The notes under the pieces: model-generated
What the model was told of the DNA's origin: nothing
The model's input: the letters and a program-made list of their open reading frames with translations, nothing else
Database searches by the model: none
From: Amycolatopsis umgeniensis
GTDB taxonomy: Bacteria; Actinomycetota; Actinomycetes; Mycobacteriales; Pseudonocardiaceae
Direction: 5' to 3'
Assembly (NCBI RefSeq): GCF_014205155.1
Contig: NZ_JACHMX010000001.1
Coordinates: forward strand, 6,386,001 to 6,450,000
Length of the DNA stretch: 64,000 nucleotides
Made by a program: the position numbers and the translations under genes
In this document: piece after piece, positions 4,917-55,002 of the stretch
Layout of the letters: the number at the start of each line of letters is the position of its first letter
Position numbering within the stretch: the stretch's first letter is position 1

Positions 4917-4945
4917 TTGACGCTCACCGTGATCATGGTTAGCGT
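4917..4945 (+). promoter_or_regulatory. Predicted promoter of the P450/ferredoxin operon
   Basis: TTGACG at 4917-4922 and TAGCGT at 4940-4945 are separated by 17 bp, a good fit to the principal sigma-factor consensus of actinobacteria (TTGAC, TAnnnT). The operator begins at the last base of the -10 box, so repressor binding would block initiation. Confidence 0.6.
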
Positions 4946-4964
4946 TGTAAGCAGTTGCTTACAA
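4945..4964. promoter_or_regulatory. Perfect inverted repeat, likely TetR operator
   Basis: TTGTAAGCA and TGCTTACAA are exact reverse complements around GT. It lies between the divergent TetR (start 4879) and P450 (start 4993) genes and overlaps the predicted P450 transcription start. Confidence 0.8.
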
Positions 4965-4992
4965 ACCGCCGAGCCGGGGGGTTTCCGGACAA

Positions 4993-6183: not shown

Positions 6184-6185
6184 GC

Positions 6186-6401: not shown

Positions 6402-6454
6402 TGTCCGCTCTTTAATGCGTGGCGGTCGTCGGTGAACTGGCGTAGGACGACAGG

Positions 6455-7675: not shown

Positions 7676-7733
7676 CGCGGCATTACCTGGCGGGTAATCG
7701 ACTTCCCGCTGCCTCGGTTGCCAAGGTGAGCAG

Positions 7734-9375: not shown

Positions 9376-9432
9376 GGCTCCCCCGTGAAATCCGGTTGTC
9401 CGGCCTCGGCCGCCTCGGTGAGGATGCGGCCT

Positions 9433-9831
9433 GTGACCATTCAACGCCACCATCCGCCCGGTCTGCACCCCACGCCCACCTACCACCACGTGACCATCGT
9501 CGAAGGACGGCGGGACGTCCACCTCGCCGGCCAGTGCCCGCTCACCGAAGACGGGAAGGTCGTCGAGGGTGACGTTCTCGCCCAGGTCGACCAGGTCGTC
9601 GCGAACACCGCCGCCGCACTCGCCTTCGCCGGGGCGACCCCGGCCGACGTGGTGCGCACGGTGATCTACGTGGTGACACCGGACGCCGACGTGCTTTCGG
9701 CCGTGTGGGACCGGTTCGTCGAGTCGAAGATCGGGGACGCCTTCACGACCGCGAGCACCCTGCTCGGCGTCGCGCAGCTCGGCTACCCCGGACAGCTCGT
9801 CGAACTCGACGTCACCGCCGCCACGGCCTGA
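9433..9831 (+). CDS. RidA/YjgF-family protein
   Basis: 132 residues from GTG 9433 (MTIQRHHPPGLHPT). RidA proteins hydrolyse reactive enamine/imine intermediates produced by PLP enzymes. Seen: VHLAGQCPLTEDGKVVEGD, DVVRTVIYVVTPD and a C-terminal LGYPGQLVELDV. The segment before the end lacks the usual Arg of canonical RidA, which places it in one of the Rid1-7-type subgroups and makes deaminase activity uncertain. Divergent from mtnA; a shared promoter region is likely. Confidence 0.85.
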   Translation: MTIQRHHPPGLHPTPTYHHVTIVEGRRDVHLAGQCPLTEDGKVVEGDVLAQVDQVVANTAAALAFAGATPADVVRTVIYVVTPDADVLSAVWDRFVESKIGDAFTTASTLLGVAQLGYPGQLVELDVTAATA

Positions 9832-9904
9832 CCGTCCCGCCAAGTGGGTCGCGAGTGGCGATTCGGGTTGTCGAGGGGAAGGGCAACCGTGGCGTGTTCG
9901 GGCG

Positions 9905-9967
9905 GGATGGGCGATCACGCGTGCTTGGGGGGCGATCACGTGTGATTGGAGCCGGATCTCGTGTGAT
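9905..9967. repeat. Three 21-bp repeats in reverse orientation
   Basis: Units at 9905-9925, 9926-9946 and 9947-9967 are reverse-complement forms of the 719-781 units (GGGCGATCACGTGTGATT type), again with an exact 21-bp period. Confidence 0.75.
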
Positions 9968-10048
9968 CGGGCGACGATGACGGAGTTCGCCGCCTGAGCA
10001 CGCGAGATCCGTTCCTGAACACGCGAGTCACGCCTTCGCTCACCCGGG

Positions 10049-10105
10049 GTGTCGCGAAAGCCACTTTCGGGACGTCAGACGTCCCGAAAGTGGCTTTCGC
10101 GACAC
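10049..10105. repeat. Perfect 27-bp-arm hairpin, GCGAAAG/CTTTCGC family, copy 3
   Basis: Arms 10049-10075 and 10079-10105 are exact reverse complements with a 3-nt loop. Contains GCGAAAG, CCACTTTC and the central GGGACGT/ACGTCCC. A strong hairpin between two convergent genes, probably a bidirectional terminator or a repeat element. Confidence 0.8.
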
Positions 10106-10160
10106 GGCCGCTCGGCGTCGGACGCGGCGAAGGCTCATCGGGACCTGGGAAGCGGCGACG

Positions 10161-10625
10161 TCAGGTGATGATCGTGACGACCGGTTCACCGGCCTTCGCG
10201 GCTCCGGCGAAGAAGGTCACGAGCTCGTCGTGGTAGCCCCTCACGTAGTCCAGCGCTTCGGGCTCGTCCCAGATCGACGGGTAGATGCCGTTGGCCTCGA
10301 GGTCCGAGAGCTCGACGCCCCGTGAGAGCTGGTCGAACCCCGTCCCGGACAGCTCCGCGGCGGCCTTCCGCACCTCGTCGGCCGTGAAGTACCGCGGCGG
10401 CCCGTCACTGTCGGCTTCCCCCAGCAGTGTTCCGCCCAGCACGAAGTCGACCTCGGATCCGGCCCGCTCGGCCAGGTACCACAGCGCGTGCCAGGCCTTG
10501 TCGACGTCCACCGCCCGCTCGGTGCCCACGGCCTTCTCCGCGAACCCCCAGTACCGATCGGGCTCCTCGATCAGCTCGCGCAGCTCATCCGGCGTGACCC
10601 GCAGATACGCACCGCACATGCCCAT
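10161..10625 (-). CDS. DUF1877 (YfbM-like) protein
   Basis: 154 residues; begins MGMCGAYLRVTPDELREL, the usual start of this family, and has a DKAWHALWYLAE segment typical of it. The family has a small mixed fold and no known biochemical role. It lies 3 bp downstream of the PIG-L gene on the same strand, so the two form an operon. Confidence 0.85.
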   Translation of the reverse strand: MGMCGAYLRVTPDELRELIEEPDRYWGFAEKAVGTERAVDVDKAWHALWYLAERAGSEVDFVLGGTLLGEADSDGPPRYFTADEVRKAAAELSGTGFDQLSRGVELSDLEANGIYPSIWDEPEALDYVRGYHDELVTFFAGAAKAGEPVVTIIT

Positions 10626-10628
10626 CGG

Positions 10629-11426
10629 TCAGAGACCCGCCATCAGATCGGTCTCGGTGATGCCCGGCCCCTGCCCCGCGCGGATGAACCACTCGACGCC
10701 GAAAGCCCGCGCGAAACCCTCGTCGGGCATCGCGAGGAAGAACGAGTCCTCGCTGATCTGGCTGGCGTGCGCGCGCATCGCGGCCCGCTTCTGGGGCAGG
10801 TACTCGTGGACGTCCACCCGCGCGGTCAGCACCGCTTCCGGCTTGCCGAACTCGGCGCCGCCCTCTTCGAAATCGGGAAGGTCTTCGGCCTTCATCTCCC
10901 CGGTCCGCACCGCCTCCTCCATGCCGCGGCGCATCTCGTCACTGTTGCTCGTCGCCTCGTAGACCCGCGGCGTGCCCGCCAGCTCGGCCGCGCGCATGCC
11001 GACGCGATGCACCTGGATGTGGTCCGGATGCCCGTAGCCGCCGTTGTCGTCGTACACGGTCAGGACGTCGGCCTGCTCCTCGCGCAGGATCTCGGCCAGC
11101 CGCTGCGCGGCCTCCTCGACATCGGCCTGCCAGAACGTGCCGGGCACGTCGTTGCGCGGCTCGCCCATCATGCCGGAGTCGGTGTACCCCAAGAACTCCA
11201 CGCGCTTGGCTCCCAGCACCTCGGCCGAAGCGTGCGTCTCCTGCACGCGGCGCTGCCACAACTCCTCTCCGTCGTCGAGGAACCCGTCCGGGACCTCGCC
11301 GACCTCCCCCCTGGTCGCGACGACGAGCACGACACGGTGACCTTCCTCGAAGGCCTTGCGCATGACGCCGCCCGCGACGATGCACTCGTCGTCGGGGTGG
11401 GCGTGAAAACTCACCAATGTGGCCAT
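10629..11426 (-). CDS. PIG-L family zinc deacetylase / amidase (Mca/MshB-like)
   Basis: 265 residues from ATG 11426 (MATLVSFHAHPDDE). Zinc ligands are in HAHPDDE and, after about 130 residues, GYGHPDHIQ. These motifs define LmbE/PIG-L enzymes, which cleave N-acyl groups from glucosamine-containing substrates. In actinobacteria the closest roles are mycothiol S-conjugate amidase (Mca) and GlcNAc-inositol deacetylase (MshB). The subfamily cannot be fixed by eye. First gene of a two-gene operon with DUF1877. Confidence 0.88.
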   Translation of the reverse strand: MATLVSFHAHPDDECIVAGGVMRKAFEEGHRVVLVVATRGEVGEVPDGFLDDGEELWQRRVQETHASAEVLGAKRVEFLGYTDSGMMGEPRNDVPGTFWQADVEEAAQRLAEILREEQADVLTVYDDNGGYGHPDHIQVHRVGMRAAELAGTPRVYEATSNSDEMRRGMEEAVRTGEMKAEDLPDFEEGGAEFGKPEAVLTARVDVHEYLPQKRAAMRAHASQISEDSFFLAMPDEGFARAFGVEWFIRAGQGPGITETDLMAGL

Positions 11427-11561
11427 GGTGGGGAAACTACCGGGAGGCACCGACATATTCCGACGATGCCCGCCTGCGTGACAGTTGACCATCGCAGGTT
11501 GCGGATTCGGCCATTCACACGACTCATGTCACACGGACGACAGGGCGGAAGGTGGCCGACT

Positions 11562-12251
11562 GTGGTGGGGATCGACGATTGGTATCTGGCCCGGGCACAT
11601 CGACACGAGGTCATGCCGGAGTACGGCCCTGACGATGACATTCCGGATCCGGAGGTTTTCGGGGAGTCACCGGCTCAAGGGTGGATCGTCCATGGGAGCG
11701 GGCAGCGGCTCAGACACAAAAAGCGTGTTCCGGCGCCCGATGGTCCGCGCACGGTGCCATCTGCTGTCTCCGGAGGCACTTGGCAGTCGGCAGCAAGGAA
11801 ATGGCTGGCTGCCTTCCCTCAGGGAACGAACCGTGAGTGCTTGCGCGCCTTGCGCTCGGCGGGCCACAAGAACGCGACGACGCAGCTGATCGAGCGCTTG
11901 CGTGTCAAGTCACGCACGGACCCGGCACGGGCCAAGAAACACGTCCGCCGCAGCACTTCGGGAAACAAGAGGCGTCGTTCCGCCGACGATGTAGCGTGGC
12001 ATGGCTTCGCCGTCCAGTGGTTGCGAACTCATCCGGGCGCGAGCAATCGCCAATGGCGGGAAGCGGTCGAGGAGGCGGGGTTCGCGGGTGTCAGCAGTGC
12101 GGCGATTGCCGCGCTCCGCGGTGAAGTCCGATCCCGCAAGGCGAAACCGCTTAACCCATCGACCGCACGTCCGACGCCACTACACGTCAAGGTCGACTAC
12201 TGCGACGGCTGCGGTATCGCGGTCCGCGACGATGGTCTCTGCCGCTGTTAG
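11562..12251 (+). CDS. Unrecognised protein with two repeated helical modules and a Cys-rich tail
   Basis: Not recognised. GTG 11562 is chosen because GGAAGGTGG precedes it; ATG 11526 is also in frame. The 229-residue product has two similar ~45-residue segments, one with WLAAFPQGTNRECLRALRSA, the next with WLRTHPGASNRQWREAVEEA, each followed by a helix ending LR..V.SR. A basic linker (KKHVRRSTSGNKRRRS) lies between them. The chain ends in CDGCGIAVRDDGLCRC, a CxxC...CxC pattern that could bind zinc. The composition suggests nucleic-acid binding. Base composition looks less G+C-rich than its neighbours, which could mean acquisition. Confidence 0.6.
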   Translation: MVGIDDWYLARAHRHEVMPEYGPDDDIPDPEVFGESPAQGWIVHGSGQRLRHKKRVPAPDGPRTVPSAVSGGTWQSAARKWLAAFPQGTNRECLRALRSAGHKNATTQLIERLRVKSRTDPARAKKHVRRSTSGNKRRRSADDVAWHGFAVQWLRTHPGASNRQWREAVEEAGFAGVSSAAIAALRGEVRSRKAKPLNPSTARPTPLHVKVDYCDGCGIAVRDDGLCRC

Positions 12252-12268
12252 CCGGAACAGCGACGCCC

Positions 12269-12315
12269 GACTGTGTGGATTTCGGGACATCTGACGTCCC
12301 GAAATCCACACAGTC
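12269..12315. terminator. Bidirectional terminator-like hairpin
   Basis: Arms 12269-12288 and 12296-12315 are perfect 20-bp reverse complements with a 7-nt loop. The gene at 11562 ends 17 bp before it and the convergent dienelactone-hydrolase gene ends 18 bp after it. The inner part (GGGAC, ATCTGAC, GTCCC) matches the centres of the hairpins at 10049 and 47099, while the outer arms differ. Confidence 0.75.
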
Positions 12316-12333
12316 CCGGCTAAGCATCCCCAC

Positions 12334-13035
12334 TCACGAGGCCGGAAACGTGCGTCCCAGGAATTCCAGCGTCAGCGCCCAAGCGGCCGCGGCGGGCTCA
12401 GGCTGGTGGAACATCGGCGCGACATGGTTGTGGAACGCGTGTCCCGCCCCCTCGTGGATGTGGATCTCCGCGCCCTCGTGGGAAGCGACCGCGTCGGCCA
12501 GGCGACGCACTCCCTCGACGGGAATGTACGGATCCGCCTCGCCGAACTGGAACTGGATCGGGCAGGTGATCTTGTCCAGCAACGGAAGCTGCTCCGGAAC
12601 CCGCGAACCGTAGTACGACACCGCGACGTCCGGGGCGCCTTCGGCGGCGGCCGCGTAGGCCATAGAGCCGCCGAGGCAGAAGCCGAAGACGCCCGCGCGG
12701 CCGTCGGTTTCGGGCAGGGAGCGCAGCGTCGCCAGGGTCGCGAGGACGTCGGTGACGGCGCGTGCCGGGTCGAGCTTGCCGGCGACCTCCATCGACGCCG
12801 AGACGCCTGCTTCGTCGTGGGTGGCCGACCAGCCGGGGGCGATCCGCCAGAACAGTTCGGGCACGGCGACGACGTAGCCGAGTGCGGCCAGGTCGGCGGC
12901 GACCGATTCGAGGTAGTCGTCGAGACCGAAGATCTCCTGGATCAGCACCAGACCCGGGCCGGAGCCGGATTCGGGCAGCCAGAGCGGGGCGTCGAACGAG
13001 CCGTCGGCGACGGTCACCTGAGTCACCTGGGTCAT
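12334..13035 (-). CDS. Dienelactone hydrolase-family protein
   Basis: 233 residues, the normal length for the family. The alpha/beta hydrolase triad is visible: Cys in GVFGFCLGGS, Asp in QFGEADPYIP, His in GAGHAFHNH, as in dienelactone hydrolase proper. The substrate may be dienelactone or another small ester/lactone; no aromatic ring-cleavage gene adjoins it. Start ATG 13035 overlaps the stop of the upstream arginase-like gene by 4 bp (ATGA), so the two are translationally coupled. Confidence 0.88.
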   Translation of the reverse strand: MTQVTQVTVADGSFDAPLWLPESGSGPGLVLIQEIFGLDDYLESVAADLAALGYVVAVPELFWRIAPGWSATHDEAGVSASMEVAGKLDPARAVTDVLATLATLRSLPETDGRAGVFGFCLGGSMAYAAAAEGAPDVAVSYYGSRVPEQLPLLDKITCPIQFQFGEADPYIPVEGVRRLADAVASHEGAEIHIHEGAGHAFHNHVAPMFHQPEPAAAAWALTLEFLGRTFPAS

Positions 13036-13916
13036 CGGAGTCCTTCCAGTGCGCGCACGAGACAGTCCGTCACCAGGGCGGCCTGCGTGCCGTCGGGGTC
13101 GAGGTCGGGATCGAAGATGGTCAGTTCCAGTCCGGCCGCGCCGGGGATCGCGAGCAGGCCGCGGAGAAGTTCGACGAGCCTGTCCGGGCTGAGCCCGCCG
13201 GGGTCGGGACTGTCCACGGCGGACACGAACTCCGGGTCGAGCGTGTCGATGTCGATGTGGATCCAGAAACCGTCCAGTGGCGCGAAAATCTCGCGTGCGG
13301 CGGCGAGCGCCTCCTCGGTGCCGGAGGCCATGAGCTCTTGGCTGGTCACGACGCGAAGCCCGGCTTCCCGTGCTTCGGCGGACTCTTCCGCGCGAACACC
13401 GAGCACGAGGACGTCTTCGTCCCGGACGTAGGGCGAAAGGCCGTCCACATCGGTCAGTTCCGGAGCGCCGCGGCCGGTCACGACGGCGAGCGCTTCGCCG
13501 CCGACGTTGGCGACGAAGTCGGAGTTGCCGGGGTGCCGGAAGTCGTCGTGACCGTCGAAGTAGACGATGCCGAAGCGCCCTTCGCGACGCAGGGTCAGCA
13601 TCGCGGCGAGCGCGATGGAGCAGTCGCCGCCGAGGACGACCGGGAAGCCGCCGTCCGCGCGGATCTTCGCGACACGCCCGGCGAGGGCCGCCGTGTACGC
13701 CGCGATACCGGCCGCGTTCCGGACGCGGCCGTCCGGCGACCAGTCGGGCAGATACCGCGGCGGAGTGACGACTCCGCCGTCGGCCGCCCCCAAACGTGTG
13801 AGCAGGCCGTGGTCACGCAGCGCGCCCGGCGCCTTGTAACAGCCCGGAACCACTCCTTCGGCGGGTGGACGCAGCCCGAGATTCGACGGTGCGTCGAGCA
13901 GTACGAGATTCCCCAT
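13032..13916 (-). CDS. Arginase/agmatinase (ureohydrolase)-family protein
   Basis: 294 residues from ATG 13916 (MGNLVLLDAPSNLGL); GTG 13922 is an alternative. Metal-binding blocks: VVLGGDCSIAL, YFDGHDDF and HIDIDTLDP. The usual first ligand His (GGDHS) is Cys here, and DAHxD is DGHDD. GGDCS variants exist in the wider family, so this is probably a hydrolase of unknown guanidino or amide substrate and not a standard arginase. Coupled with the dienelactone hydrolase gene downstream. Confidence 0.8.
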   Translation of the reverse strand: MGNLVLLDAPSNLGLRPPAEGVVPGCYKAPGALRDHGLLTRLGAADGGVVTPPRYLPDWSPDGRVRNAAGIAAYTAALAGRVAKIRADGGFPVVLGGDCSIALAAMLTLRREGRFGIVYFDGHDDFRHPGNSDFVANVGGEALAVVTGRGAPELTDVDGLSPYVRDEDVLVLGVRAEESAEAREAGLRVVTSQELMASGTEEALAAAREIFAPLDGFWIHIDIDTLDPEFVSAVDSPDPGGLSPDRLVELLRGLLAIPGAAGLELTIFDPDLDPDGTQAALVTDCLVRALEGLR

Positions 13917-13989
13917 GCCCACACCGTAGTAGCGATCCCTGGTGTCACGCCGTCCGTCCCTTTAGGTTGAAGAGAACGGAGGAGGCTCA

Positions 13990-15342
13990 ATGGCGGAGCG
14001 GACGAAGTACATCCTCGACGAAGCGGACCTGCCGACCCGGTGGTACAACGTCATCCCGGATCTGCCGGAGCCGCCACCGCCGCCCCTGCATCCGGGCACA
14101 CGCGAGCCTGTCGGCCCGGAAGATCTCGCACCGCTGTTCCCGCAGGCGCTCATCGCGCAAGAGGTCACCACCGAACGGTACGTCGACATCCCCGAAGAGG
14201 TCCTGGACGTCTACCGGCTCTGGCGTCCTTCGCCGCTGTTCCGCGCGAGGCGGCTGGAGAAGGCGCTCGGCACGCCCGCCCGCATCTACTACAAGTACGA
14301 AGGTGTCAGCCCGGTCGGCTCGCACAAGCCCAACACCGCGGTGCCGCAGGCGTTCTACAACGCGGCCGAGGGCGTCACGAGGCTGACCACGGAAACCGGC
14401 GCCGGGCAGTGGGGGAGCGCGCTCGCGTTCGCCTGCGCCACCTTCGGGCTCGAATGCGAGGTGTGGCAGGTCCGCGCCTCGTACGACCAGAAGCCCTACC
14501 GCAAGCTGATGATGGAGACGTTCGGCGCCACCGTGCATCCGAGCCCGTCCGAGCTGACCGCGTCCGGCCGCGCGATCCTGGCCGCCGACCCGGGATCGAC
14601 CGGAAGCCTCGGCATCGCGATCAGTGAGGCCGTCGAGCAGGCGGCGCAGGCGGAGGACACCCGCTACGCGCTCGGCAGCGTGCTCAACCACGTCCTCCTG
14701 CACCAGACGATCATCGGCGAAGAGGCGCTCAAGCAGTTCGAGCTGGCCGGGGACACTCCGGACGTCCTTGTCGGCTGCACCGGCGGCGGGTCCAACTTCG
14801 GCGGGCTCGCCTTCCCGTTCCTGCGCGAGAAACTCGCCGGGCGGATGGACCCGGTGATCCGCGCGGTCGAACCGGCCGCCTGCCCCTCGCTCACCCGGGG
14901 GAAGTACGCGTACGACTTCGGCGACACCGCGGGGCTGACGCCGTTGCTGAAGATGCACACCCTCGGTCATGGCTTCATCCCCGACCCCATCCACGCCGGC
15001 GGCCTGCGCTATCACGGGATGTCGCCGCTGATCTCGCACATCTACGAGCTCGGCCTCATCGACGCGATCGCCATCGGTCAGGAAGCCTGCTTCGCTGCGG
15101 GTGTCCGGTTCGCTCGGACGGAGGGCATCATCCCGGCGCCCGAGCCGACGCACGCGCTCGCCGCCTGTATCCAGGAAGCGTTGCGGTGCAAGGAAACCGG
15201 CGAGGAGAAGGTGATTCTGACCGCGTTGTGCGGGCACGCCCACCTCGACCTCCCGGCGTACGGCGCGTACCTCGCGGGCGACATCGTCGACAACGCGCTG
15301 CCCGACGAGGCCCTCGAGAAGTCGCTGGCCGGGCTTCCCTGA
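13990..15342 (+). CDS. TrpB2-type tryptophan synthase beta-like PLP enzyme
   Basis: 450 residues. The PLP Lys is at about residue 113 in [13 protein letters not shown], followed by [14 protein letters not shown] and the phosphate-binding [11 protein letters not shown]. The long N-terminal extension and these blocks are those of TrpB2, which makes tryptophan from indole and serine but often lacks a TrpA partner. No trpA is adjacent. Divergent from the arginase-like gene. Confidence 0.9.
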
Positions 15343-15348
15343 CCCGGG

Positions 15349-16599
15349 TCAGCCGGTCACCTGATAGCCGGAGGTCCGGTTCCGGCCGGTGTTCTTGGCC
15401 TCGTACAGCGCCCGGTCCGCGACGGCGATCACCGCGTCGAGGTCGGCCACCCCCGGCCGGTCGGCGAGGCCGATCGACACGGTGACGTGCTCCGGCAGGT
15501 CACCGGCCCGGCCCGCGATACTCGACCGGATGCGTTCCGCGATCGCGTGGGCGTGCACGGCGGGCGTACCGGGCAGCAGGACGACGAATTCCTCGCCGCC
15601 GAACCGTCCGACCAGATCCGTGCCGCGCACTTCGGTGCGCAGCGTTTCCGCGATGGCGGCGAGATACCGGTCGCCGACCAGATGCCCGTGCCGGTCGTTG
15701 ATCAGTTTGAACCGGTCGACGTCGAGCATCAGGAGGCTGGTGTGCCGTCCCGCGCGCCGCGCGCGATCGAGTTCGTCGGACGCGGCCTCGCGCCACGCCT
15801 TCGCGTTGAGCAGCCCTGTCTTGGCGTCGCTGCGCGCTTGCCGTTTCAGTTGCCTCAGCAGCACGCCACGGTGCAGCACCAGCGTGATCCCGACGACCAG
15901 CAGCAGCACCACCGGCCAGTCCCGCAGCGCCCACGCCACGATGATGCCGAGCGCGATCGTCGCCGTCTCGAGCGCGTACTCGAACGGCTTCGCCAGCGCG
16001 TCGCGCAGCCTGTCGTGCGGGGTGCCGTAGTACACCGCGGTCGTCATCAGCGCGGTGTTGACCAGCAGGAACACTCCGCCCGCGGCGACCACGAGCCCGA
16101 ACGAGCGGACGTCGCGGGGGAGGACGTCGAACGGGTCCGCGTACCGGGCGAGGAACACCGCGGCCGCGAAGCCCGAGAGCACTGTCGCCGACGCGGAGAA
16201 CGTCCGACGGAACAACGGGTTCGGTTGCCCGCGGAACCAGCGGTAGAAGAACGACATGGCGATGACCAGTGCGGCGAGCCCGGGGTGCACCAGCAACACG
16301 GCCGCGAAGGTCCAGACACTGTCGAGCGAGATGTGCGGCGTGCCCGCGAACCGTTCCCGCACGCGCTCCACCGGCCGCGACAATTCCGTGTACAGCACGA
16401 CACTGGCGATCAGGATCGCGAAGGGCACGGCGTCGCCCGGAGTGAAGGGGACGCGGAGAAAAGACCAGGCGGATCCGGCGATCGCCGCGACGTCCACCAG
16501 GAGGACGAAGCCGATCAAACCGCGATTGGGCAGCCGCCACAGCGCCCAATTCGTTAGCGCCACGGTGACGAACGTAATCGGTTGGATACTAGGTGTCAC
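15349..16599 (-). CDS. Membrane-anchored diguanylate cyclase (GGDEF)
   Basis: 416 residues, GTG start. Residues ~1-245 form about six or seven hydrophobic segments of an unassigned membrane sensor. The GGDEF domain follows (KTGLLNAKAW, LLMLDVDRFKLINDRHGH) with the active-site signature RFGGEEFVVLLPG. An RxxD inhibitory site (RGTD) stands five residues before GGEEF, so product feedback by c-di-GMP is expected. No EAL domain. It makes c-di-GMP, which controls development in actinomycetes. Ends 6 bp beyond the stop codon of the convergent TrpB2 gene. Confidence 0.9.
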   Translation of the reverse strand: MTPSIQPITFVTVALTNWALWRLPNRGLIGFVLLVDVAAIAGSAWSFLRVPFTPGDAVPFAILIASVVLYTELSRPVERVRERFAGTPHISLDSVWTFAAVLLVHPGLAALVIAMSFFYRWFRGQPNPLFRRTFSASATVLSGFAAAVFLARYADPFDVLPRDVRSFGLVVAAGGVFLLVNTALMTTAVYYGTPHDRLRDALAKPFEYALETATIALGIIVAWALRDWPVVLLLVVGITLVLHRGVLLRQLKRQARSDAKTGLLNAKAWREAASDELDRARRAGRHTSLLMLDVDRFKLINDRHGHLVGDRYLAAIAETLRTEVRGTDLVGRFGGEEFVVLLPGTPAVHAHAIAERIRSSIAGRAGDLPEHVTVSIGLADRPGVADLDAVIAVADRALYEAKNTGRNRTSGYQVTG

Positions 16600-47247: not shown

Positions 47248-48075
47248 CTACCGCCCGGTCCACCGAGGCGACCGCCCAGCCGCCCAGGCCGCATAGAACT
47301 CCCCGTGGTCCTTCGCCGTCATCAGCAAAGCCTGCGTGATCGCCTCGAGTTCGATGGAACTCCCAAGATCCATGTCCAGTTCCCGGGTCAGCAGGACCTT
47401 CGTCGTGCTGTACGCCAGCGCCGGTCCATCGGCCAAACGCCGTGCCAGCGAAGAAGCCGCCGAAGCCAAGTCGGAGTCGGGGACGACCTGCGAAGCCAGC
47501 CCGATGGCCTCGGCCCGCGCGGCGTCGATCTTGTCGCCCAGCATCAGCAATTCCGTCGCCCGGCCCAGGCCGACCAGCCGCGGCAGCAGGTACGCCGAGC
47601 CCATGTCCGCACCGGCCAGCCCGACCTTCGTGAACAGGAAGGCGAACTTCGCCGACGAAGCCAGCAGCCGGAAGTCGCTGGCCAGCGCGATCACCGAACC
47701 CGCGCCTGCCGCGACACCGTTCACCGCGGCGATCACCGGGATGGGGCACTCGCGCAGCGCCTTCACCACCGCGCCGGTCATGCGGGTGAACTCCAGCAGT
47801 TCGGCGGACTCCATTTTCTGGAGTTCGCCGATGATCTCCTCGACGTCGCCGCCTGAGCAGAATCCGCGGCCGCGGCCGGTGATGACCAGCACCCGGACGT
47901 CGCCGCGGTGCGGCAATTCGGCCAGCAGATCGCGGAGGTCCGCGTAGATGTCGAAGGTGAGCGCGTTCAGCTTTTCGGGGCGGTCCAGGGTGACCGTGGC
48001 GACGCCGTCGTCCACGGTGAACTCGAAGTGTTCCCAGTCCGCCGTGATCGGCGGCGTGGCACGGAACGGGCTCAT
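47248..48075 (-). CDS. Enoyl-CoA hydratase/isomerase-family protein
   Basis: 275 residues from ATG 48075 (MSPFRATPPITADWEHF). Crotonase motifs: TLDRPEKLNALTFD, oxyanion-hole segments ITGRGRGFCSGGDVEE and AVNGVAAGAGSVIALASDF, then FTKVGLAGADMGSAYLLPRL. The usual catalytic Glu positions are replaced by Ala/Gly and Asp residues, a pattern found in crotonases of aromatic-CoA pathways. Last gene of the four-gene leftward operon; its start overlaps the SDR stop by 4 bp. Hydration or ring hydrolysis of an aryl/alicyclic CoA ester is inferred from context. Confidence 0.88.
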   Translation of the reverse strand: MSPFRATPPITADWEHFEFTVDDGVATVTLDRPEKLNALTFDIYADLRDLLAELPHRGDVRVLVITGRGRGFCSGGDVEEIIGELQKMESAELLEFTRMTGAVVKALRECPIPVIAAVNGVAAGAGSVIALASDFRLLASSAKFAFLFTKVGLAGADMGSAYLLPRLVGLGRATELLMLGDKIDAARAEAIGLASQVVPDSDLASAASSLARRLADGPALAYSTTKVLLTRELDMDLGSSIELEAITQALLMTAKDHGEFYAAWAAGRSPRWTGR

Positions 48076-48764
48076 GATTGGATCCCACCTCCATCGAGGA
48101 CGAGTGTCTGTCCGTTGATCGCGGCGGCTTCGGCGGCCGCGAAGAAGGTCACCGCGTGGGCGACCTCGCCGGGTTCGAGCAGGCGGCCGAGTGGGGACGC
48201 GGCGGCGAGGGCGGCTTCCGCGTCGGCTTCGTCGCGGCCGGTTCGTTCTTGGATCCGGGCCACCGAGGCGGCGGTCATGTCCGTGCGGACGAAGGCCGGG
48301 CAGACGGCGTTCGCGGTGACGCCGGTGCCGGCGACTTCGGCGGCTGTCGCCCGCATCAGGCCGACAGCGGCGTGTTTCGACGCGGTGTACCCGGCCGTGT
48401 AGCGGTAGCCGATATGCGACGCGGTCGACGCGACGGTGACGATCCGGCCCGTGTCGCGCGATCGCATGCCGGGCAGAACCGCCCGCGTGCACAGGAAAGC
48501 GCCGGTCGCGTTGACTTCGATCTGCGTTCGCCACTGCTCCAGCGATGTCTTCGCCAGCGGCGCGCTCGCCGAGATCCCGGCGTTGTTCACCAGCACGTCC
48601 ACCGGGCCGAGGCCGTCGAAGTACCGGGCGACGGCGGCCTCGTCGGTGACGTCGCAGTCGGCCCGGCCGGGGGCGTGCACCTTGTCCCCGGCGGCCTGGA
48701 ACCGGGCGGCGATGGCCGCGCCGATCCCGCGTGTCCCGCCGGTGACGACGACGATCCTGCTCAC
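48072..48764 (-). CDS. SDR-family oxidoreductase
   Basis: 230 residues from GTG 48764. Motifs: VVVTGGTRGIGAAIA, DVLVNNAGIS, Ser in TVASTASHIG, YTASKHA, and the terminal NGQTLVLDGGG common to FabG-like enzymes. The adenine-ribose loop reads GRADCDVTD. It probably oxidises a hydroxyl on a CoA-bound intermediate produced with the neighbouring ligase and hydratase. GTGA overlap with the ligase and ATGA overlap with the hydratase show translational coupling. Confidence 0.88.
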   Translation of the reverse strand: MSRIVVVTGGTRGIGAAIAARFQAAGDKVHAPGRADCDVTDEAAVARYFDGLGPVDVLVNNAGISASAPLAKTSLEQWRTQIEVNATGAFLCTRAVLPGMRSRDTGRIVTVASTASHIGYRYTAGYTASKHAAVGLMRATAAEVAGTGVTANAVCPAFVRTDMTAASVARIQERTGRDEADAEAALAAASPLGRLLEPGEVAHAVTFFAAAEAAAINGQTLVLDGGGIQS

Positions 48765-50263
48765 TCTGCCTCCACCCGGCGCAGCGCGCGCCGATCGAGT
48801 TTTCCGTTGGCGGTGCGGGGGAGTCCGGTCACGAACACCACCTCGCGCGGATATTTGTGCTTCGCCAGATGCGTCCGCGCGTAGTCCTTCAGTTCGTCCG
48901 GCGTGACGGAAAAGCCTTCCGCCAGGACGACGCACGCCCGCGGGACCATCAGGCCGTCGACGGTCACGCCCAGCACCGCGCAGTCGACGACGGCGGGATG
49001 ACCGATGAGACAGTCTTCGATCTCGCTCGGCGCGACGAACACGCCGGACACCTTCAGCAGGTCGTCGGCACGGCCGTGGTGGTGGAAGAACCCGTCGGTG
49101 TCGCGGCTGAACAGGTCGCCGGTGCGCAGGGTGTCGCCGCGGAACGTCCGCGCGGTCTTCTCCGCGTCGCCGAAGTATTCGCGCGCGATGGTCGGACCGG
49201 TGACCTCCAGGGTGCCGATCTCGCCGTCCGGCAACGGATCATCGCTCTCGTCCAGGATGCGGGCGCGGTAGCCGGGGACCTCGCGGCCGAGGCTGCCGAC
49301 CCGCTGCGCGCCGGGCACATTGGACAGATAGATGTGGTACGCCTCCGACGAGCCGATCCCGTCGATCACCGGGACACCGAACAGGTTGTCCCACTTGCGA
49401 TGCAGCTCTGAAGGCAGCGCCTCGCCCGCCGACGTCGCGAGCCGCAACGAACTCATGTCCACAGTGGACGCCGCCGGATGGGCGATCATCGCGCTCATCA
49501 TGGTCGGCACGTTGACCAGGATCGTCGGCCGATAGCGCTCGATCAGCGAGAAGAGCAGATCGGCGGTGCTGCGCTGCGGGAACACGATCCCGGAAGCACC
49601 CACGCCGAACGGGAACAGCGCTGTCAGATCCCGCGCGTAACCGAAGAACAGCTTCGGCACGGCCAGCACTCGGTCGTCCTCGCGGAGGCCGAGTACGCCG
49701 AGCGCGTAGCGGTCGAAGCTCTCCAGCGCGCTGCGCGCCGGATGCACGCACGCCTTGGGCGAGCCGGTGCTCCCGGTGGTGAACTTCCAGATCGCGACGT
49801 CGTCCAGCGAAGTCGGCGCGGCTTCCAGTTCAGCCGACGCCGACGCGACCAGCGAGGCGAACGAGTGCTCGCCGGGCTCCAGCGCGACATCGCCGATCAC
49901 CAGCAGGTTCCGCGCCCCGGCCTCGCGCAGCGCGGGCAGCGTCGAGCCGTCCGCGATGACGACGACGGCCTCGGTGTAGTCCAGGTAGTACGCGTAATCC
50001 TTGGGCTGCAGGAAGGAGTAGACCTCGGCGGTGACCGCGCCGATCTTCTGCGCCGCGTACCAGACGGCCACGAACTCGACGCTGTCGTTCAACGCCAGCA
50101 GGACCCGCTGTCCACTTCGGACACCCAGCTCCCGCAGCACGTTCCCGGCCCGGTTCACCAACGTCGCCAACTCCGCGTAGGTGACTTCGTCGTCGCCGCA
50201 CACCAGCGCCGTGCGGGAACCGGGGAGGCGGTCCACGAAATGGGTCGCCAGGTTGAAGGTCAT
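48761..50263 (-). CDS. Benzoate/aminobenzoate-type aryl-CoA ligase
   Basis: 500 residues from ATG 50263 (MTFNLATHFVDRLPG). Adenylation motifs: P-loop KFTTGSTGSPKACVHP, A5 DGIGSSEAYHIYLSN, A8 hinge RTGDLFSRDTDGFFHHHGRAD, and Lys in LPRTANGKLDRRAL. The segment FLQPKDYAYYLDYTEAVVV is typical of the benzoate-CoA ligase subfamily (BadA, 2-aminobenzoate-CoA ligase), which is longer and distinct from fatty-acyl ligases. The likely substrate, judged by the neighbouring tryptophan-degrading genes, is anthranilate; 4-hydroxybenzoate- or benzoate-like acids are alternatives. Coupled at both ends to its neighbours. Confidence 0.88.
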   Translation of the reverse strand: MTFNLATHFVDRLPGSRTALVCGDDEVTYAELATLVNRAGNVLRELGVRSGQRVLLALNDSVEFVAVWYAAQKIGAVTAEVYSFLQPKDYAYYLDYTEAVVVIADGSTLPALREAGARNLLVIGDVALEPGEHSFASLVASASAELEAAPTSLDDVAIWKFTTGSTGSPKACVHPARSALESFDRYALGVLGLREDDRVLAVPKLFFGYARDLTALFPFGVGASGIVFPQRSTADLLFSLIERYRPTILVNVPTMMSAMIAHPAASTVDMSSLRLATSAGEALPSELHRKWDNLFGVPVIDGIGSSEAYHIYLSNVPGAQRVGSLGREVPGYRARILDESDDPLPDGEIGTLEVTGPTIAREYFGDAEKTARTFRGDTLRTGDLFSRDTDGFFHHHGRADDLLKVSGVFVAPSEIEDCLIGHPAVVDCAVLGVTVDGLMVPRACVVLAEGFSVTPDELKDYARTHLAKHKYPREVVFVTGLPRTANGKLDRRALRRVEAE

Positions 50264-50985
50264 ACCAGCTCCCGGATCGCTTCGACCAGGATGTCGGCGA
50301 GCACCGAGAAGGTCTTCTCGCCTTCTTCGGCGGTCGCCTGGGCGGGGGTTCCGCAGTAGGCGTCGGTCATCCCGGCCGAGGCGAAATCCGTGACCCCGCC
50401 GCGCGCCAGGTCGACGTGGACCGGTCGCAACTCGCGTTGAATCGTGACATCGACGAGGTCCGGGCGGTCGGCGAGCACCAGCGACGTCTCGTACTGCCCG
50501 GCATGACACTCGCCGGAGCGGAACTCGTCGGTGAGCCGCGCCGCGTACCGGCGGCGCACCAGATCGACGAGGCCGACGCCCGCCGTCTCCGCCACCCGCC
50601 GCAGCACCGCGAGATGCGCGGGCTCGAAATGATTGTTGACCAGCAGGATCCGGGAGAGTCCCTGCTCGACGAGCGCGCCGCAGATGTCGGTGAGCAGCGC
50701 GTGCAGCGTCTCCTCGCCGATCGAGATACCGCCCGCGAACCCGGCCGCGAACCGTGTCACGCCGTAGGGCACCTCGGGCAGGATCAGCACGTGGACGCTC
50801 GCGTCGCCCGCCAGCCGCGCGGCCGCGCGCTCGCACATCCCCCGCGAGATCAGGGGATCGGTGCCCAGCGGCGCGTGCGGTCCGTGCGGTTCGACGGCGC
50901 CCACCGGCAACAGCAGCACGGGAACGCGCGCGTCGGACGCGAGCGCGGCGACCTGACGCGAGCTCAAATCCGCGAAGTACGTCAC
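50260..50985 (-). CDS. Creatininase-family metal-dependent amidohydrolase
   Basis: 241 residues from GTG 50985 (MTYFADLSSRQVAALAS). Metal-ligand blocks: LPVGAVEPHGPHAPLGTD (Glu, His, Asp) and LLVNNHFEPAH, whose HxE spacing matches the His/Glu pair of creatininase proper. A later catalytic-type GECHAGQYETSLVLA follows. The family hydrolyses cyclic amides and formamides: creatininase, MftE and the archaeal FAPy deformylase ArfB belong to it. First gene of the leftward operon; 48 bp separate it from the PaaX-type regulator. A possible N-formylkynurenine deformylase, by inference from neighbours only. Confidence 0.85.
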   Translation of the reverse strand: MTYFADLSSRQVAALASDARVPVLLLPVGAVEPHGPHAPLGTDPLISRGMCERAAARLAGDASVHVLILPEVPYGVTRFAAGFAGGISIGEETLHALLTDICGALVEQGLSRILLVNNHFEPAHLAVLRRVAETAGVGLVDLVRRRYAARLTDEFRSGECHAGQYETSLVLADRPDLVDVTIQRELRPVHVDLARGGVTDFASAGMTDAYCGTPAQATAEEGEKTFSVLADILVEAIRELV

Positions 50986-50996
50986 CCGAATCAAGC

Positions 50997-51020
50997 TACA
51001 CCGCAGCGGCCTGAGGTGTA
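50997..51020. promoter_or_regulatory. Inverted repeat TACACC-N12-GGTGTA in the divergent control region
   Basis: TACACC at 50997-51002 and GGTGTA at 51015-51020 are exact complements. The site lies in the 48-bp gap between the starts at 50985 and 51034. TAnnnT hexamers are present on both strands at its edges (TAGAGT at 51021-51026 for the rightward genes). Likely binding site of the PaaX-type protein, controlling both operons. Confidence 0.6.
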
Positions 51021-51033
51021 TAGAGTTGCCCGC

Positions 51034-51846
51034 ATGCCCGAATCCCACGGCGACCCAGGTCCCCAAGAGCTGGTGGTGACACTGCTCGGCACGTACGTGT
51101 CGCCGCGCGAGAGCCGCCGCGTCTGGTCCGGCGGCCTGGTCGGCGTGCTCGCCGGGCTCGGCTTCTCCGACGGCGCCGCGCGGATCGCGCTGGCCAGGCT
51201 CGCCCGCCGCGACCTGCTCGCGAGACACAAGGCGGGCAGGCTCGTCCACTACTCGCTGACCCGCCGCACGATCGCGTTGCTCGAGGACGGCGACCGCCGG
51301 ATCTTCTCACTCGGCAGACGCGAACGCGAGGTCGGCGAGTGGACGGTGCTGTGGCAGAGCATCCCGGAAAGCCGCCGTCAGGCTCGGGAACGGCTGGTGC
51401 GCCGCCTGCGTTTCCTCGGGTTCGGCCCGGTGCAGGACGGCACCTGGATCGCCCCGCACGACCGCGAGGCCGAGGTGCTCGCCCTGCTGACCGAATTGGA
51501 CGTTTCCGAACACGCCGGGCTGATGCTCGGCAAACCGTCGGCCGGTCTCGACGTCCGGCGGTTCGCCGGCCGGGCCTGGAACCTCGACGACCTCGCCGCG
51601 CGTTACGACGCGTTCGTCCGAGATTTCGGCGGATATTCAGGCGACCTGCCTGACGCCGAGGCGTTCCAGGTCCGAACCTGGCTGACGCACACCTTCCGCG
51701 CCTTCCCGTCGCTCGACCCGGAACTCCCGGTCGGGCTGGTGCCGGCTCCGCCGAGCCGGGCGGCCGCGGTCGAGCTGTTCCACGATCTGTACCAGGCGCT
51801 GGCCCCGGCGGCACAGCGCCACTTCGATGAGGTGACCGAACCATGA
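51034..51846 (+). CDS. PaaX-family transcriptional repressor
   Basis: 270 residues from ATG 51034 (MPESHGDPGPQELVVTLL). The N-terminal winged helix is RIALARLARRDLLARHKAGR, LVHYSLTRRTIALLEDGDRR, followed by the PaaX central domain (WTVLWQSIPESRRQARERLV, RRLRFLGFGPVQDGTWIAPH) and PaaX_C (FHDLYQAL). E. coli PaaX is released from DNA by phenylacetyl-CoA, so an aryl-CoA such as anthraniloyl-CoA, the expected product of the divergent ligase, is a natural inducer candidate. ATGA overlap with the dioxygenase gene. Confidence 0.9.
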   Translation: MPESHGDPGPQELVVTLLGTYVSPRESRRVWSGGLVGVLAGLGFSDGAARIALARLARRDLLARHKAGRLVHYSLTRRTIALLEDGDRRIFSLGRREREVGEWTVLWQSIPESRRQARERLVRRLRFLGFGPVQDGTWIAPHDREAEVLALLTELDVSEHAGLMLGKPSAGLDVRRFAGRAWNLDDLAARYDAFVRDFGGYSGDLPDAEAFQVRTWLTHTFRAFPSLDPELPVGLVPAPPSRAAAVELFHDLYQALAPAAQRHFDEVTEP

Positions 51847-52628
51847 ACGAAGACACGCAGGCCGCATTGAGTTACACGTCCTACCTTTCGCTGGACGAAT
51901 TGCTGGACGCGCAGCATCCGAGGTCCGAAGAGCACGACGAACTGCTCTTCATCGTGATCCACCAAGTGTATGAACTTTGGTTCAAACAAGTTCTCCACGA
52001 GGCGCTTTACCTGCAGGAGCAACTCGAAGCGGGTAACACCGCTCACGCCACCCGCACGCTGAGGCGAATCCTGACTATCTTCAAGGTGGTGGTCGCGCAG
52101 ATCGATGTGCTCGAGACGATGACTCCGAGCCAGTTCACCAGCTTTCGCGCGCGACTCGACGCTTCGAGCGGGTTCCAGTCGGCTCAATTCCGTGTTCTGG
52201 AGGCCGTTCTCGGCCGTCGGGACGAGCGGGTGTTCGCGCATTACCCCGAGGGCGGTGACCAGCGTGCCCAGATCGCGGACGCGATGGCACGGCCGTCGCT
52301 GTTCGATTCCTTCACCACCTACCTCGCGGTGAAGGGGTACGACGTCCCGACCGGGCGCGATGTCACCAAGCCACTCGAACCCTCTCCGGCGCTCCAAGAG
52401 GTTCTGCTGCGGGTCTACCGCGACGACACAGGGCCGTCCGTCGTGGCGGAGCACCTGGTCGATCTGGACGAAGGGATGCAGGAGTGGCGGTATCGGCACG
52501 TGAAGATGGTCGAGCGCACCATCGGAGACAAGACCGGGACGGGGGGTTCGTCGGGCGCGCATTACCTGCGTACGACGCTTTTCTCCCCGATGTTCCCGGA
52601 CCTCTGGGCGGTGCGGAGCAGGCTTTGA
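51843..52628 (+). CDS. kynA: Tryptophan 2,3-dioxygenase
   Basis: 261 residues, the normal length for bacterial TDO. Heme/substrate blocks: LLFIVIHQVYELWFKQVLHE with the distal His, and EWRYRHVKMVERTIGDKTGT with the proximal heme His, then GGSSGAHYLRTTLFSPMFPD. It opens the indole ring of L-tryptophan with O2 to give N-formylkynurenine. Translationally coupled to the PaaX gene before it and to the kynureninase gene after it. Confidence 0.95.
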   Translation: MNEDTQAALSYTSYLSLDELLDAQHPRSEEHDELLFIVIHQVYELWFKQVLHEALYLQEQLEAGNTAHATRTLRRILTIFKVVVAQIDVLETMTPSQFTSFRARLDASSGFQSAQFRVLEAVLGRRDERVFAHYPEGGDQRAQIADAMARPSLFDSFTTYLAVKGYDVPTGRDVTKPLEPSPALQEVLLRVYRDDTGPSVVAEHLVDLDEGMQEWRYRHVKMVERTIGDKTGTGGSSGAHYLRTTLFSPMFPDLWAVRSRL

Positions 52629-53815
52629 CGAACCTCGACGAACTCCGCCGCGACCCGAACGCGCTCGCGGCGCACTACACGGAATTCGGTGTGGCGGACC
52701 GGATCCTGTTGACCGGGCACTCGCACCAGGCTTGGCCGGACGTCGCACGGGAAGGCCTTCTGGAGGCTTTCGCGGACGCGGCCGAAGAGGTCGACACGAA
52801 ATGGGACCGGGCCTTCGCCAAGGCCGACGAGCTGCGGGCCGGGTTCCGGGCGCTGCTCGGTGACCCGCACGGCGGCATCGCGCTCGGCGCCAGCACCCAC
52901 GATCTGGTGATCCGGTTCCTTTCCGCGATGGACCTGCGCGGCCGTCCGCGCCTGATCACCACCGACGGGGAGTTCCACACACTGCGCCGTCAGCTGGCGA
53001 GGCTGGCCGAGGAGGGTGTCGAGGTCGTTCGCGTCCCCTCGACCCCTGTCGCCACCCTGGCCGAACGCGTCGCGGCCGAGGTCACCGAAGACACCGCCGC
53101 CGTACTCGTCTCGGCCGTGCTGTTCGAGACCTCCCGGCTGGTGCCGGGGCTGGCCCACCTCGCCGACGTCTGCCTTTCGAAGTCGGTGAACCTCGTCGTC
53201 GACGCCTACCACGCGCTCGGCGTCGTCCCGTTCGCGCTGCACGACCTCGGGCTCACCAACGCCTGGGTGCTCGGCGGCGGCTACAAGTACCTCCAGCTCG
53301 GCGAGGGCAACTGCTTCTTGCGGATGCCCGCGCACGCGCAGGAACTGCGGCCGGTCGTCACCGGCTGGTACGCCGAGTTCGGCGCGCTCGCGGACGAGCG
53401 CCGGCCCGGCCAGGTCGCCTACGCCAGCGGTTCGGACAGGTTCGCCGGGGCGACCTACGACCCGACGAGCCACTACCGGGGCGCCCGCGTCTTCCGGTTC
53501 TTCGCCGAGCACGGGCTCACACCCGAGTTCCTGCGGGAGGTGTCGCGGCACCAGGTCGGCTTCCTCGCCGAGGGTTTCGACAAGCTCGGCCTGCCCGAAG
53601 ACATCATCACGCGCGACCGCGAGACCCCGCTGGACCGCATCGGCGGCTTCCTGTCGCTGAAGTGCGCAGACGCCGGAGCGCTGCAGGCCGCCCTCGCCGA
53701 ACGCGGGGTACGGACCGACAGCCGCGGCGCGTACCTGCGGTTCGGACCGGCGCCGTATCTGTCCGACAGTCAGCTCGACTCCGCACTCCGCATCCTGGGC
53801 GAGATCGTCCGCTAG
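52625..53815 (+). CDS. kynU: Kynureninase (PLP-dependent) with a TTG start
   Basis: 396 residues. The best start is TTG 52625 (TTGACGAACCTCGACGAACT region), which overlaps the TDO stop as TTGA; no ATG or GTG is well placed. Aminotransferase class V fold: Asp in NLVVDAYHALGVVPF, PLP Lys in LGGGYKYLQLGEGNC, and GSDRFAGATYDPTSHYRGA at the substrate side. Kynureninase cleaves kynurenine to anthranilate and alanine. Position directly after TDO supports this against a general cysteine-desulfurase-like function. N-formylkynurenine must first be deformylated by another enzyme. Confidence 0.9.
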   Translation: MTNLDELRRDPNALAAHYTEFGVADRILLTGHSHQAWPDVAREGLLEAFADAAEEVDTKWDRAFAKADELRAGFRALLGDPHGGIALGASTHDLVIRFLSAMDLRGRPRLITTDGEFHTLRRQLARLAEEGVEVVRVPSTPVATLAERVAAEVTEDTAAVLVSAVLFETSRLVPGLAHLADVCLSKSVNLVVDAYHALGVVPFALHDLGLTNAWVLGGGYKYLQLGEGNCFLRMPAHAQELRPVVTGWYAEFGALADERRPGQVAYASGSDRFAGATYDPTSHYRGARVFRFFAEHGLTPEFLREVSRHQVGFLAEGFDKLGLPEDIITRDRETPLDRIGGFLSLKCADAGALQAALAERGVRTDSRGAYLRFGPAPYLSDSQLDSALRILGEIVR

Positions 53816-53931: not shown

Positions 53932-55002
53932 GTGACCGAAGTGTTCGGCCAAGGTACCGGCCATGAACAGGTCGTCTTCTGCCAAGACCAGGCCACCGGC
54001 CTGAAGGCCATCATCGGGATCTACTCGACGGCGCTGGGGCCGTCGCTCGGCGGGACCCGGTTCTACCCGTACGCCTCCGAGGAAGCCGCGCTCGCGGACG
54101 TCCTCGCGCTGTCGAAGGGCATGGCCTACAAGAACGCGCTCGCCGGGCTCGACCTCGGTGGCGGCAAGGCCGTCATCATCGGCGACCCCCACAAGCACAA
54201 GACCGAAGCGCTGCTTCGCGCCTTCGGCCGGTTCGTCCAGTCGCTGGGCGGCCGCTACATCACCGCCTGCGACGTGGGCACCTACGTCCAGGACATGGAC
54301 ATCGTCGCCCGCGAATCGGAGTTCGTCACGGGCCGCTCGCCGGAGAACGGCGGCGCCGGCGACTCCTCGGTGCTCACCGCCTTCGGCACCTACCAGGGCA
54401 TGCGCGCGTCCGCGGACGCCGTCTGGGGCGTTCCCGACCTCGCGGGCCGCAAGGTCGGCGTCGCCGGGGTCGGCAAGGTCGGGCACATCCTGGTCGGGCA
54501 TCTGATCGAGGCGGGCGCGCAGGTGGTCATCACCGACGTCTCGCCCGCGGCGATCGAGCGCACCCGCGCGGCGTACCCCGGCGTCGAGGTCGTCGAAGAC
54601 CTCGACGCGCTGATGCGCACCGAACTCGACGTCTTCGCGCCGTGCGCGCTGGGCGGGGTGCTCACCGACGAGAGTGTCGCCGAGCTCCGCACCAAGATCG
54701 TCTGCGGCGCCGCCAACAACCAGCTCGCGCACCCCGGTGTCGACAAGCTGCTCGACGACCGCGGCATCCTCTTCGCGCCGGACTACCTGGTCAACGCCGG
54801 TGGCGTGATCCAGGTCGACGACGAGCGGCACGGCTTCGACTTCGCGCGCGCGAAGCGCAAGACGACGGCCATCTTCGACACCACCAAGGCGGTGTTCGCG
54901 CTGGCCAAGGCCGACGGCGTGCCCCCGGCCGCGGCGGCGGACAGGCTGGCCGAGCGCCGGATGACCGAGGTCGGCGGACTGCGGTCGATCCTGACGGTGT
55001 AG
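53932..55002 (+). CDS. Leucine/valine dehydrogenase (Glu/Leu/Phe/Val dehydrogenase family)
   Basis: 356 residues, GTG start with AAGGAG eight bases upstream. Catalytic Lys in [20 protein letters not shown], nucleotide fold [17 protein letters not shown], and [12 protein letters not shown] and [15 protein letters not shown] at the active site. The closest roles are valine and leucine dehydrogenases of actinomycetes, which deaminate branched-chain amino acids with NAD+ and supply precursors for polyketide synthesis. 116 bp after kynureninase with its own likely promoter. Confidence 0.93.

Follow-up and report, generated by a model that had tools for sequence, protein, structure and literature searches.

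A candidate tryptophan-to-anthraniloyl-CoA gene cluster with a PaaX-type regulator in Amycolatopsis umgeniensis

The window analysed here is a stretch of 64,000 nucleotides from Amycolatopsis umgeniensis (contig NZ_JACHMX010000001.1, positions 6,386,001 to 6,450,000), whose genome is assembled as a single contig of 9.2 Mb. It contains seven genes in two divergent operons, which we propose to form a regulon for tryptophan degradation. The genes and their control region are as follows, in window coordinates.

47248-48075, minus strand: ECH, crotonase-fold enoyl-CoA hydratase/hydrolase of the PRK08258 type (NF006107); candidate for a hydration or ring-opening step in the lower pathway
48072-48764, minus strand: SDR, short-chain dehydrogenase (PF00106 and PF13561); candidate for the lower pathway
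48761-50263, minus strand: LIG, aryl-CoA ligase (TIGR02262, over cut-off); proposed anthranilate-CoA ligase
50260-50985, minus strand: CRE, creatininase-family metal amidohydrolase (PF02633); proposed deformylase of N-formylkynurenine or N-formylanthranilate
50986-51033, no strand: divergent control region of 48 bp, bounded by the flanking start coordinates
50997-51020, no strand: 24-bp palindrome TACACC-N12-GGTGTA; proposed PaaX operator
51034-51846, plus strand: PaaX-type regulator (PF07848, PF20803, PF08223)
51843-52628, plus strand: TDO, tryptophan 2,3-dioxygenase (PF03301)
52625-53815, plus strand: KYNU, divergent kynureninase with a TTG start (profile of 13 relatives against the PDB)

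An earlier reading of the DNA letters alone (hereafter the sequence-only reading) had described seven genes of these families, a 4-bp overlap at every junction within the operons and a 48-bp control region carrying the palindrome. Coordinates and family profiles bear out this description. All five within-operon junctions, among four leftward and three rightward genes, are overlaps of exactly 4 bp, the SDR gene overlapping its neighbours at either end.

The products of the rightward operon were assigned by profile searches. TDO matched PF03301 (Trp_dioxygenase) with 210.6 bits against a cut-off of 34.9 and was the sole match to this family in the host genome at E<=0.001; its 15 PDB matches were all tryptophan 2,3-dioxygenases. 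A profile built from 13 KYNU relatives retrieved only kynureninases from the PDB (4/4 at E<=1e-5; best 1qz9, E 4.3e-15), and its alignment to 1qz9 matched a Tyr-Lys pair, Asp/His, Trp and Arg, which we take to be the catalytic residues of kynureninase. The sequence GHSHQ stands in KYNU at the place of GNSLG in 1qz9. All three PaaX Pfam domains were over cut-off in the regulator. Among the leftward genes, LIG reached 440.5 bits on TIGR02262, the benzoate-CoA ligase family (cut-off 375.25). Its closest PDB relatives are benzoate-CoA ligases, the anthranilate-CoA ligase 4wv3 ranking fifth, and we propose it as a putative anthranilate-CoA ligase. CRE scored 174.9 bits on PF02633 (Creatininase, cut-off 31.3), fell below the equivalog cut-offs for MftE (106.2 against 172 bits) and creatininase (78.2 against 235 bits), and resembled the IolN model weakly (44.6 bits, cut-off 245). 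Its residues E32, H34, D43, H119, E121, H161 and E166 align with creatininase (1q3k), whose ligand region they presumably correspond to. ECH carries an ECH_1 domain, scored 405.8 bits on NF006107 (cut-off 330) and had 3g64 as its best PDB match, and SDR carries the adh_short domain (PF00106).

The palindrome occurs once in the window, where 0.00 matches were expected from 100 shuffles, and the 48-bp control region is almost unchanged in six congeners. Allowing at most two mismatches, it was found upstream of PaaX in 13 of 33 loci of the host's family, six of these being the congeners with an identical 24-mer. In a set of 56 PaaX loci, which includes duplicates between collections, it was found upstream of PaaX in 31, against a rate of 1.1% in 5600 windows of 260 bp drawn at random from those loci. 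It was not found at this tolerance upstream of PaaX in the remaining 20 of the 33 family loci, several of which show a related variant whose left arm contains TTGAC. A search of the whole genome at the same tolerance returned 125 sites against 70 for a reversed control, so the palindrome is unsuited to finding the regulon and was abandoned for that purpose.

The conservation of the cluster was followed by searching 150 genomes of the family with KYNU, which gave 45 matches at E<1e-80, the host's own included. We compared 43 loci of relatives (L045-L087) and examined that of genome G011 (L208) separately. TDO was present in 43/43 of these loci and LIG lay inside the TDO-KYNU cluster in 35 of them; PaaX was co-located with LIG in 33/35 loci and in 0/8 of the loci without LIG. 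The two halves are thus conserved together in related genomes, a point on which the sequence-only reading had let its proposal depend. The SDR gene was seen in 25 of the 43 loci, and RidA and acyl-CoA dehydrogenase genes follow ECH in part of the relatives' operons (16/43 and 15/43), some loci being truncated by the stretch examined.

The sequence-only reading had also stated that a ring-attacking enzyme lay outside the window and that the pathway was incomplete there. The enzyme is indeed absent from the window cluster; since it was found both in the relatives' operon and elsewhere in the host genome, the pathway is better described as split than as incomplete. In 20 of the 43 relatives, the interval of about 3 kb from CRE (or LIG) to PaaX encodes an FAD-monooxygenase/OYE fusion of the PRK08255 type, a homologue of anthraniloyl-CoA monooxygenase/reductase (ACMR), together with a luciferase-like flavoprotein (PF00296), and the cluster of G011 also holds both genes. 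The host's own ACMR lies at 3448368-3450650, about 3 Mb from the window cluster. It scored 1226.9 bits on NF006101 (cut-off 1078), has an intact HCAH motif and shares 67% identity with its counterpart on plasmid pAL1. It is located beside a second PaaX, RidA and acyl-CoA dehydrogenase genes, an arrangement matched in six congeners (L093, L096-L098, L100, L103). The 20 kb around it contained no ligase, ECH or SDR gene, and the window cluster has no ACMR, RidA or acyl-CoA dehydrogenase, so that the two loci together equal the relatives' full operon minus the luciferase-like gene. No anthranilate 1,2-dioxygenase was over cut-off in the host genome (105.8 against 671.9 bits).

ACMR was present in all 37 LIG-bearing genomes (34 of 35 relatives at E<=1e-150, plus G006/L083, G011 and the host) and, at E<=1e-150, in none of the eight TDO-KYNU genomes without LIG (G036, G039, G044, G045, G070, G073, G077, G136). 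A Fisher test computed without G011 (36/0 against 0/8) gave 6e-9, a value that is descriptive only because the genomes are related. The ACMRs fall into two forms. In those encoded within the cluster (among L051-L086), the OYE motif ELHCAHGY has Asp or Glu at its first His in 20/20, the second His is retained in 6/20, and all 20 are paired with a PF00296 gene. The host ACMR (L042) and 20 others (L091-L110) keep the OYE motif, 21/21, and have no PF00296 neighbour in the stretches examined; ECH homologues 65-70% identical to the cluster ECHs are present in 8 of these 20 other loci. No close relative of the PF00296 partner was found in the host genome, the best match being 36% identical over part of its length. 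The function of the reductase half of ACMR may have passed to this partner.

The gene set extends beyond the family. A scan of named genomes yielded 78 loci from the best 80 of 86 relatives, and the set recurs there in Amycolatopsis, Actinokineospora and Actinophytocola records. A metagenome-assembled genome (MAG) titled as Gemmatimonadetes (L158) holds LIG, CRE, SDR, RidA, ECH, acyl-CoA dehydrogenase, ACMR, TDO and KYNU in one locus, and two titled as Gammaproteobacteria (L168, L176) hold the partial set TDO-KYNU-LIG-CRE, the CRE of L168 being 39% identical to the window family over a near-full-length alignment. By identity thresholds, 24 of the 78 loci have both LIG and CRE, 3 have LIG but no CRE, none has CRE but no LIG, and 51 have neither. 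Of the three with LIG but no CRE, L148 and L072 encode proteins of 100% identity, L193 forms part of the G011 contig, and in L160 the only ligase is 35% identical and about 8 kb distant. MAG taxonomy was taken from record titles and may be wrong: the L193 contig, titled Candidatus Melainabacteria, lies within the family-genome contig of L208, and its cluster has neither creatininase nor SDR.

Conversion of tryptophan to anthranilate needs a deformylation, and the cluster has no KynB-type gene. The creatininase family includes an N-formyl hydrolase, the FAPy deformylase of archaea. At E<=1e-30, CRE was found in 40 of the 150 family genomes, namely the host, 36 with the gene in a KYNU cluster and 3 with it beside TDO alone. 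The window copy and those of all 34 relatives that have both CRE and LIG retain the conserved residues, and every intact copy in relatives has LIG in the same cluster (34/34). The residues are broken in L077 and L078, which have no LIG, and in L088-L090, which have neither KYNU nor LIG. CRE was absent from all 34 ACMR-bearing family genomes without a KYNU orthologue; nine of these loci, checked gene by gene (L091, L092, L094, L095, L101, L102, L104, L109, L110), showed varying sets of ligase, crotonase, SDR, RidA and acyl-CoA dehydrogenase genes and no CRE. CRE is therefore not required for ring degradation, and its restriction, as an intact gene, to loci where TDO-KYNU feeds LIG points to deformylation. 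The sequence-only reading had listed CRE among the leftward enzymes and assigned it no particular role. It probably belongs to the deformylation step rather than to ring degradation, and a deformylase, whatever the order of the steps, is the function that we favour, with some reserve, from its distribution and residues. Across the class, CRE was found at E<=1e-25 in 1 of 394 genomes, the host itself. In the open-licence literature we found no relevant report tying the creatininase family to kynurenine formamidase, formylkynurenine, tryptophan or deformylase.

The copies that lost their residues still lie beside TDO, the gene either decaying or having changed its role. The simpler idea that CRE tracks TDO, raised by three genomes of genus g15 with CRE beside TDO and no KYNU or LIG, is weakened because these copies and both copies of genus g44 have lost conserved residues.

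A KynB-type kynurenine formamidase (TIGR03035) would carry out the chemistry proposed for CRE; we take KynB-type enzymes to form the PF04199 cyclase family, a different Pfam family from that of CRE (PF02633). None of the 150 family genomes had a TIGR03035 match over cut-off, alpha/beta-hydrolase formamidases not being searched. The PF04199 match of the host scored 24.9 against 223.05 bits on this model, and the five genomes that reached 132-148 bits have no KYNU orthologue. A non-homologous formamidase beside TDO-KYNU was also sought and rejected: the scanned neighbours were peptidases, SIR2, transporters, RecX, TatD, a thioesterase and the like, with no formamidase family among them; one set of ten neighbours of TDO-KYNU loci likewise contained none. 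An alpha/beta hydrolase gene adjoins KYNU in L054, L056, L077 and L078.

Starting from direct observations (which genes are present, how they are arranged and conserved together, that the missing module exists and that the operator recurs), we consider it quite probable that the seven genes are a tryptophan-degradation regulon feeding an aerobic anthraniloyl-CoA pathway. TDO would open the indole ring to give N-formylkynurenine, CRE would take off the formyl group, and the divergent kynureninase would produce alanine and anthranilate, which LIG would convert to anthraniloyl-CoA. An ACMR-type flavoprotein would then dearomatise the thioester and RidA remove the enamine nitrogen, and the crotonase, SDR and acyl-CoA dehydrogenase would continue through steps resembling beta-oxidation. 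Both operons would be kept repressed by PaaX at the 24-bp palindrome and released once an aryl-CoA accumulates, for which anthraniloyl-CoA is the likeliest candidate. For the substrates, the place of the deformylation step and the PaaX effector, these are the assignments that we infer. If the scheme is correct, actinobacteria and some other phyla would possess a CoA-dependent route dedicated to tryptophan, and formyl removal in genomes without a recognised KynB could be explained. One clade of the creatininase family would gain a function, and control by PaaX and anthraniloyl-CoA would extend from a quinaldine plasmid to chromosomal tryptophan catabolism. A bolder version appears to us about evenly balanced between right and wrong: CRE would be a new deformylase class with no relation to KynB, whose substrate may be N-formylanthranilate supplied by a KYNU that accepts N-formylkynurenine (a non-canonical order), and the relatives' His-less ACMR with its luciferase-like flavoprotein would be a second, split form of the dearomatising system.

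Several observations weigh against the proposed regulon and pathway. Some profile scores are weak: TDO is below the stricter TIGR03036 cut-off (269.6 against 390.7 bits), PaaX below that of the PaaX-proper equivalog TIGR02277 (154.2 against 264.55 bits), and KYNU as a single sequence below TIGR01814 (23.3 against 246.4 bits), its best PDB matches then being cysteine desulfurases. LIG is 33% identical to the pAL1 ligase and belongs to a separate clade. On the side of regulation, identity between the window PaaX and the pAL1 regulator encoded at the meqR2 position is 29.5%, the palindrome is unlike the operator of the pAL1 system, and it was not found, at two or fewer mismatches, in the 20 kb around the host ACMR, which is adjoined by its own PaaX. 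With 70 matches in total, ACMR extends to 34 of the remaining 105 family genomes and is therefore not specific to this cluster, and a copy weaker than 1e-150 could be missed, as that of G006 was. The compared genomes share ancestry, so that counts are not independent events. As regards deformylation, CRE is missing in two LIG-bearing relatives (G008/L072 and G011/L208), and it is absent or degenerate in the eight TDO-KYNU genomes without LIG, where the step is left unexplained. The TIGR03035 negative is soft, since 14/14 control genomes did not reach the cut-off either; sub-cut-off matches occur in 88 of the 150 genomes, up to 147.7 bits (up to 73.5 in KYNU genomes), and some formamidase of this family may be present.

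Among the alternatives, some of which address single steps so that their probabilities need not add up to one, two concern CRE. KYNU might use N-formylkynurenine and release N-formylanthranilate, which CRE would deformylate to anthranilate ahead of LIG, after side-chain removal. Intact CRE follows LIG rather than TDO-KYNU alone, in the 34 relatives as in the 78 named loci, no formamidase family was seen among the ten scanned neighbours, and the GHSHQ substitution lies in KYNU itself. LIG-less TDO-KYNU genomes have neither intact CRE nor an over-cut-off KynB, which makes this order worth testing. The antimycin ligase AntF is described, in the available part of the source, as accepting anthranilate and not N-formylanthranilate (PMC3869250), so deformylation ahead of the ligase is plausible in either order. 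The canonical sequence, however, has kynurenine first, and bare TDO-KYNU pairs could be served by a formamidase encoded elsewhere; we regard the reversed order as unlikely.

We judge it equally improbable that CRE is a ring-opening or other lower-pathway hydrolase, like the creatininase-family inosose hydrolase IolN, with an unlinked enzyme carrying out deformylation. CRE adjoins ACMR and LIG in the relatives' operon, is lacking or degenerate in genomes without LIG and ACMR, and has its weak similarity to IolN, but it was found in none of the 34 ACMR-bearing genomes without KYNU, nor among the annotated genes of the pAL1 stretch.

Activation by LIG of another aryl acid (benzoate, salicylate or kynurenate), the two operons being neighbours with no common pathway, would agree with the benzoate-CoA ligases as nearest PDB relatives and with the annotation of the pAL1 ACMR as salicylyl-CoA 5-hydroxylase/oxidoreductase. 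This is very unlikely in our view: LIG is kept with TDO-KYNU across Actinomycetota, Gemmatimonadetes and Gammaproteobacteria, and RidA in the module would fit an amino substrate. Least probable of all is a biosynthetic cluster supplying an anthranilate starter unit for a natural product, since, despite the TDO, occasional kynureninase and anthranilate-activating ligase combined in antimycin clusters (PMC3869250, in its available part) and a 63.5%-identical ligase found with TDO and PaaABCDE-like genes in locus L120, a Pfam scan of ten window proteins, three flanking genes included, showed no polyketide synthase or nonribosomal peptide synthetase family, and relatives hold acyl-CoA dehydrogenase, crotonase and RidA instead.

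The proposed tryptophan route can be compared with known systems. Plasmid pAL1 of Arthrobacter sp. Rue61a (quinaldine/anthranilate) has, like the host, a CoA ligase, ACMR, RidA and PaaX-type regulators, which lie in one region of the plasmid and in the host are spread over two loci. It differs in having no TDO, kynureninase, creatininase, crotonase or SDR among the annotated genes of 26 kb, a ligase of another clade and another operator. The pAL1 regulator MeqR2 reportedly responds to anthraniloyl-CoA and binds TGACGNNCGTcA, a motif that does occur in pAL1, and the second PaaX of the host is 50% identical to the regulator at the meqR2 position. According to the available part of PMC3534580, two PaaX-related regulators govern quinaldine degradation on pAL1 and the anthranilate-CoA ligase of the plasmid is experimentally confirmed; by its position, the AMP-binding gene beside the pAL1 ACMR is that ligase. 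The 2-aminobenzoyl-CoA (abm) pathway of Azoarcus evansii and Cupriavidus shares with the proposed route the order of ligase, monooxygenase/reductase and beta-oxidation, as far as the available part of PMC4539516 describes it, and a Cupriavidus metallidurans annotation assigns kyn genes to tryptophan, abmG to anthranilate and abm genes to 2-aminobenzoyl-CoA (PMC8879955, likewise in part). The available parts of these two papers describe neither a single kyn-ligase-PaaX cluster nor a creatininase-family member. The overall route from tryptophan through anthranilate to the CoA ester is thus already known, annotated in Cupriavidus; novelty lies in the compactness of the cluster with its proposed PaaX control, in the separate clade of its ligase and in the presence of a creatininase-family gene. 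Antimycin clusters (genes AntN, AntP, AntF and AntHIJKL) share with the window TDO, in some clusters kynureninase, and an anthranilate-activating ligase; they differ in serving biosynthesis on a carrier protein, and the available part of PMC3869250 describes neither ACMR nor RidA.

Of 18 TDO relatives in other families, 12 loci were examined (L112-L123). In L120 (genome G471, 3078-16444) the ligase 63.5% identical to LIG is divergent from TDO and near PaaABCDE-like oxygenase genes, with no creatininase; this may be an antimycin-like or another anthranilate oxygenase cluster. L122 and L123 each have one run of TDO, FAD monooxygenase, another kynureninase, amidohydrolase, 3-hydroxyanthranilate dioxygenase and RidA genes, which is a different kynurenine route. 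Finally, a gene of the Glu/Leu/Phe/Val-dehydrogenase family lies 3' of KYNU in the window (53932-55002). Against the closest NCBIfam model, that of tryptophan dehydrogenase ScyB, it scored 322.7 bits, short of the cut-off (600), and it is found in 11 of the 43 relatives' loci at an identity of at least 70%.

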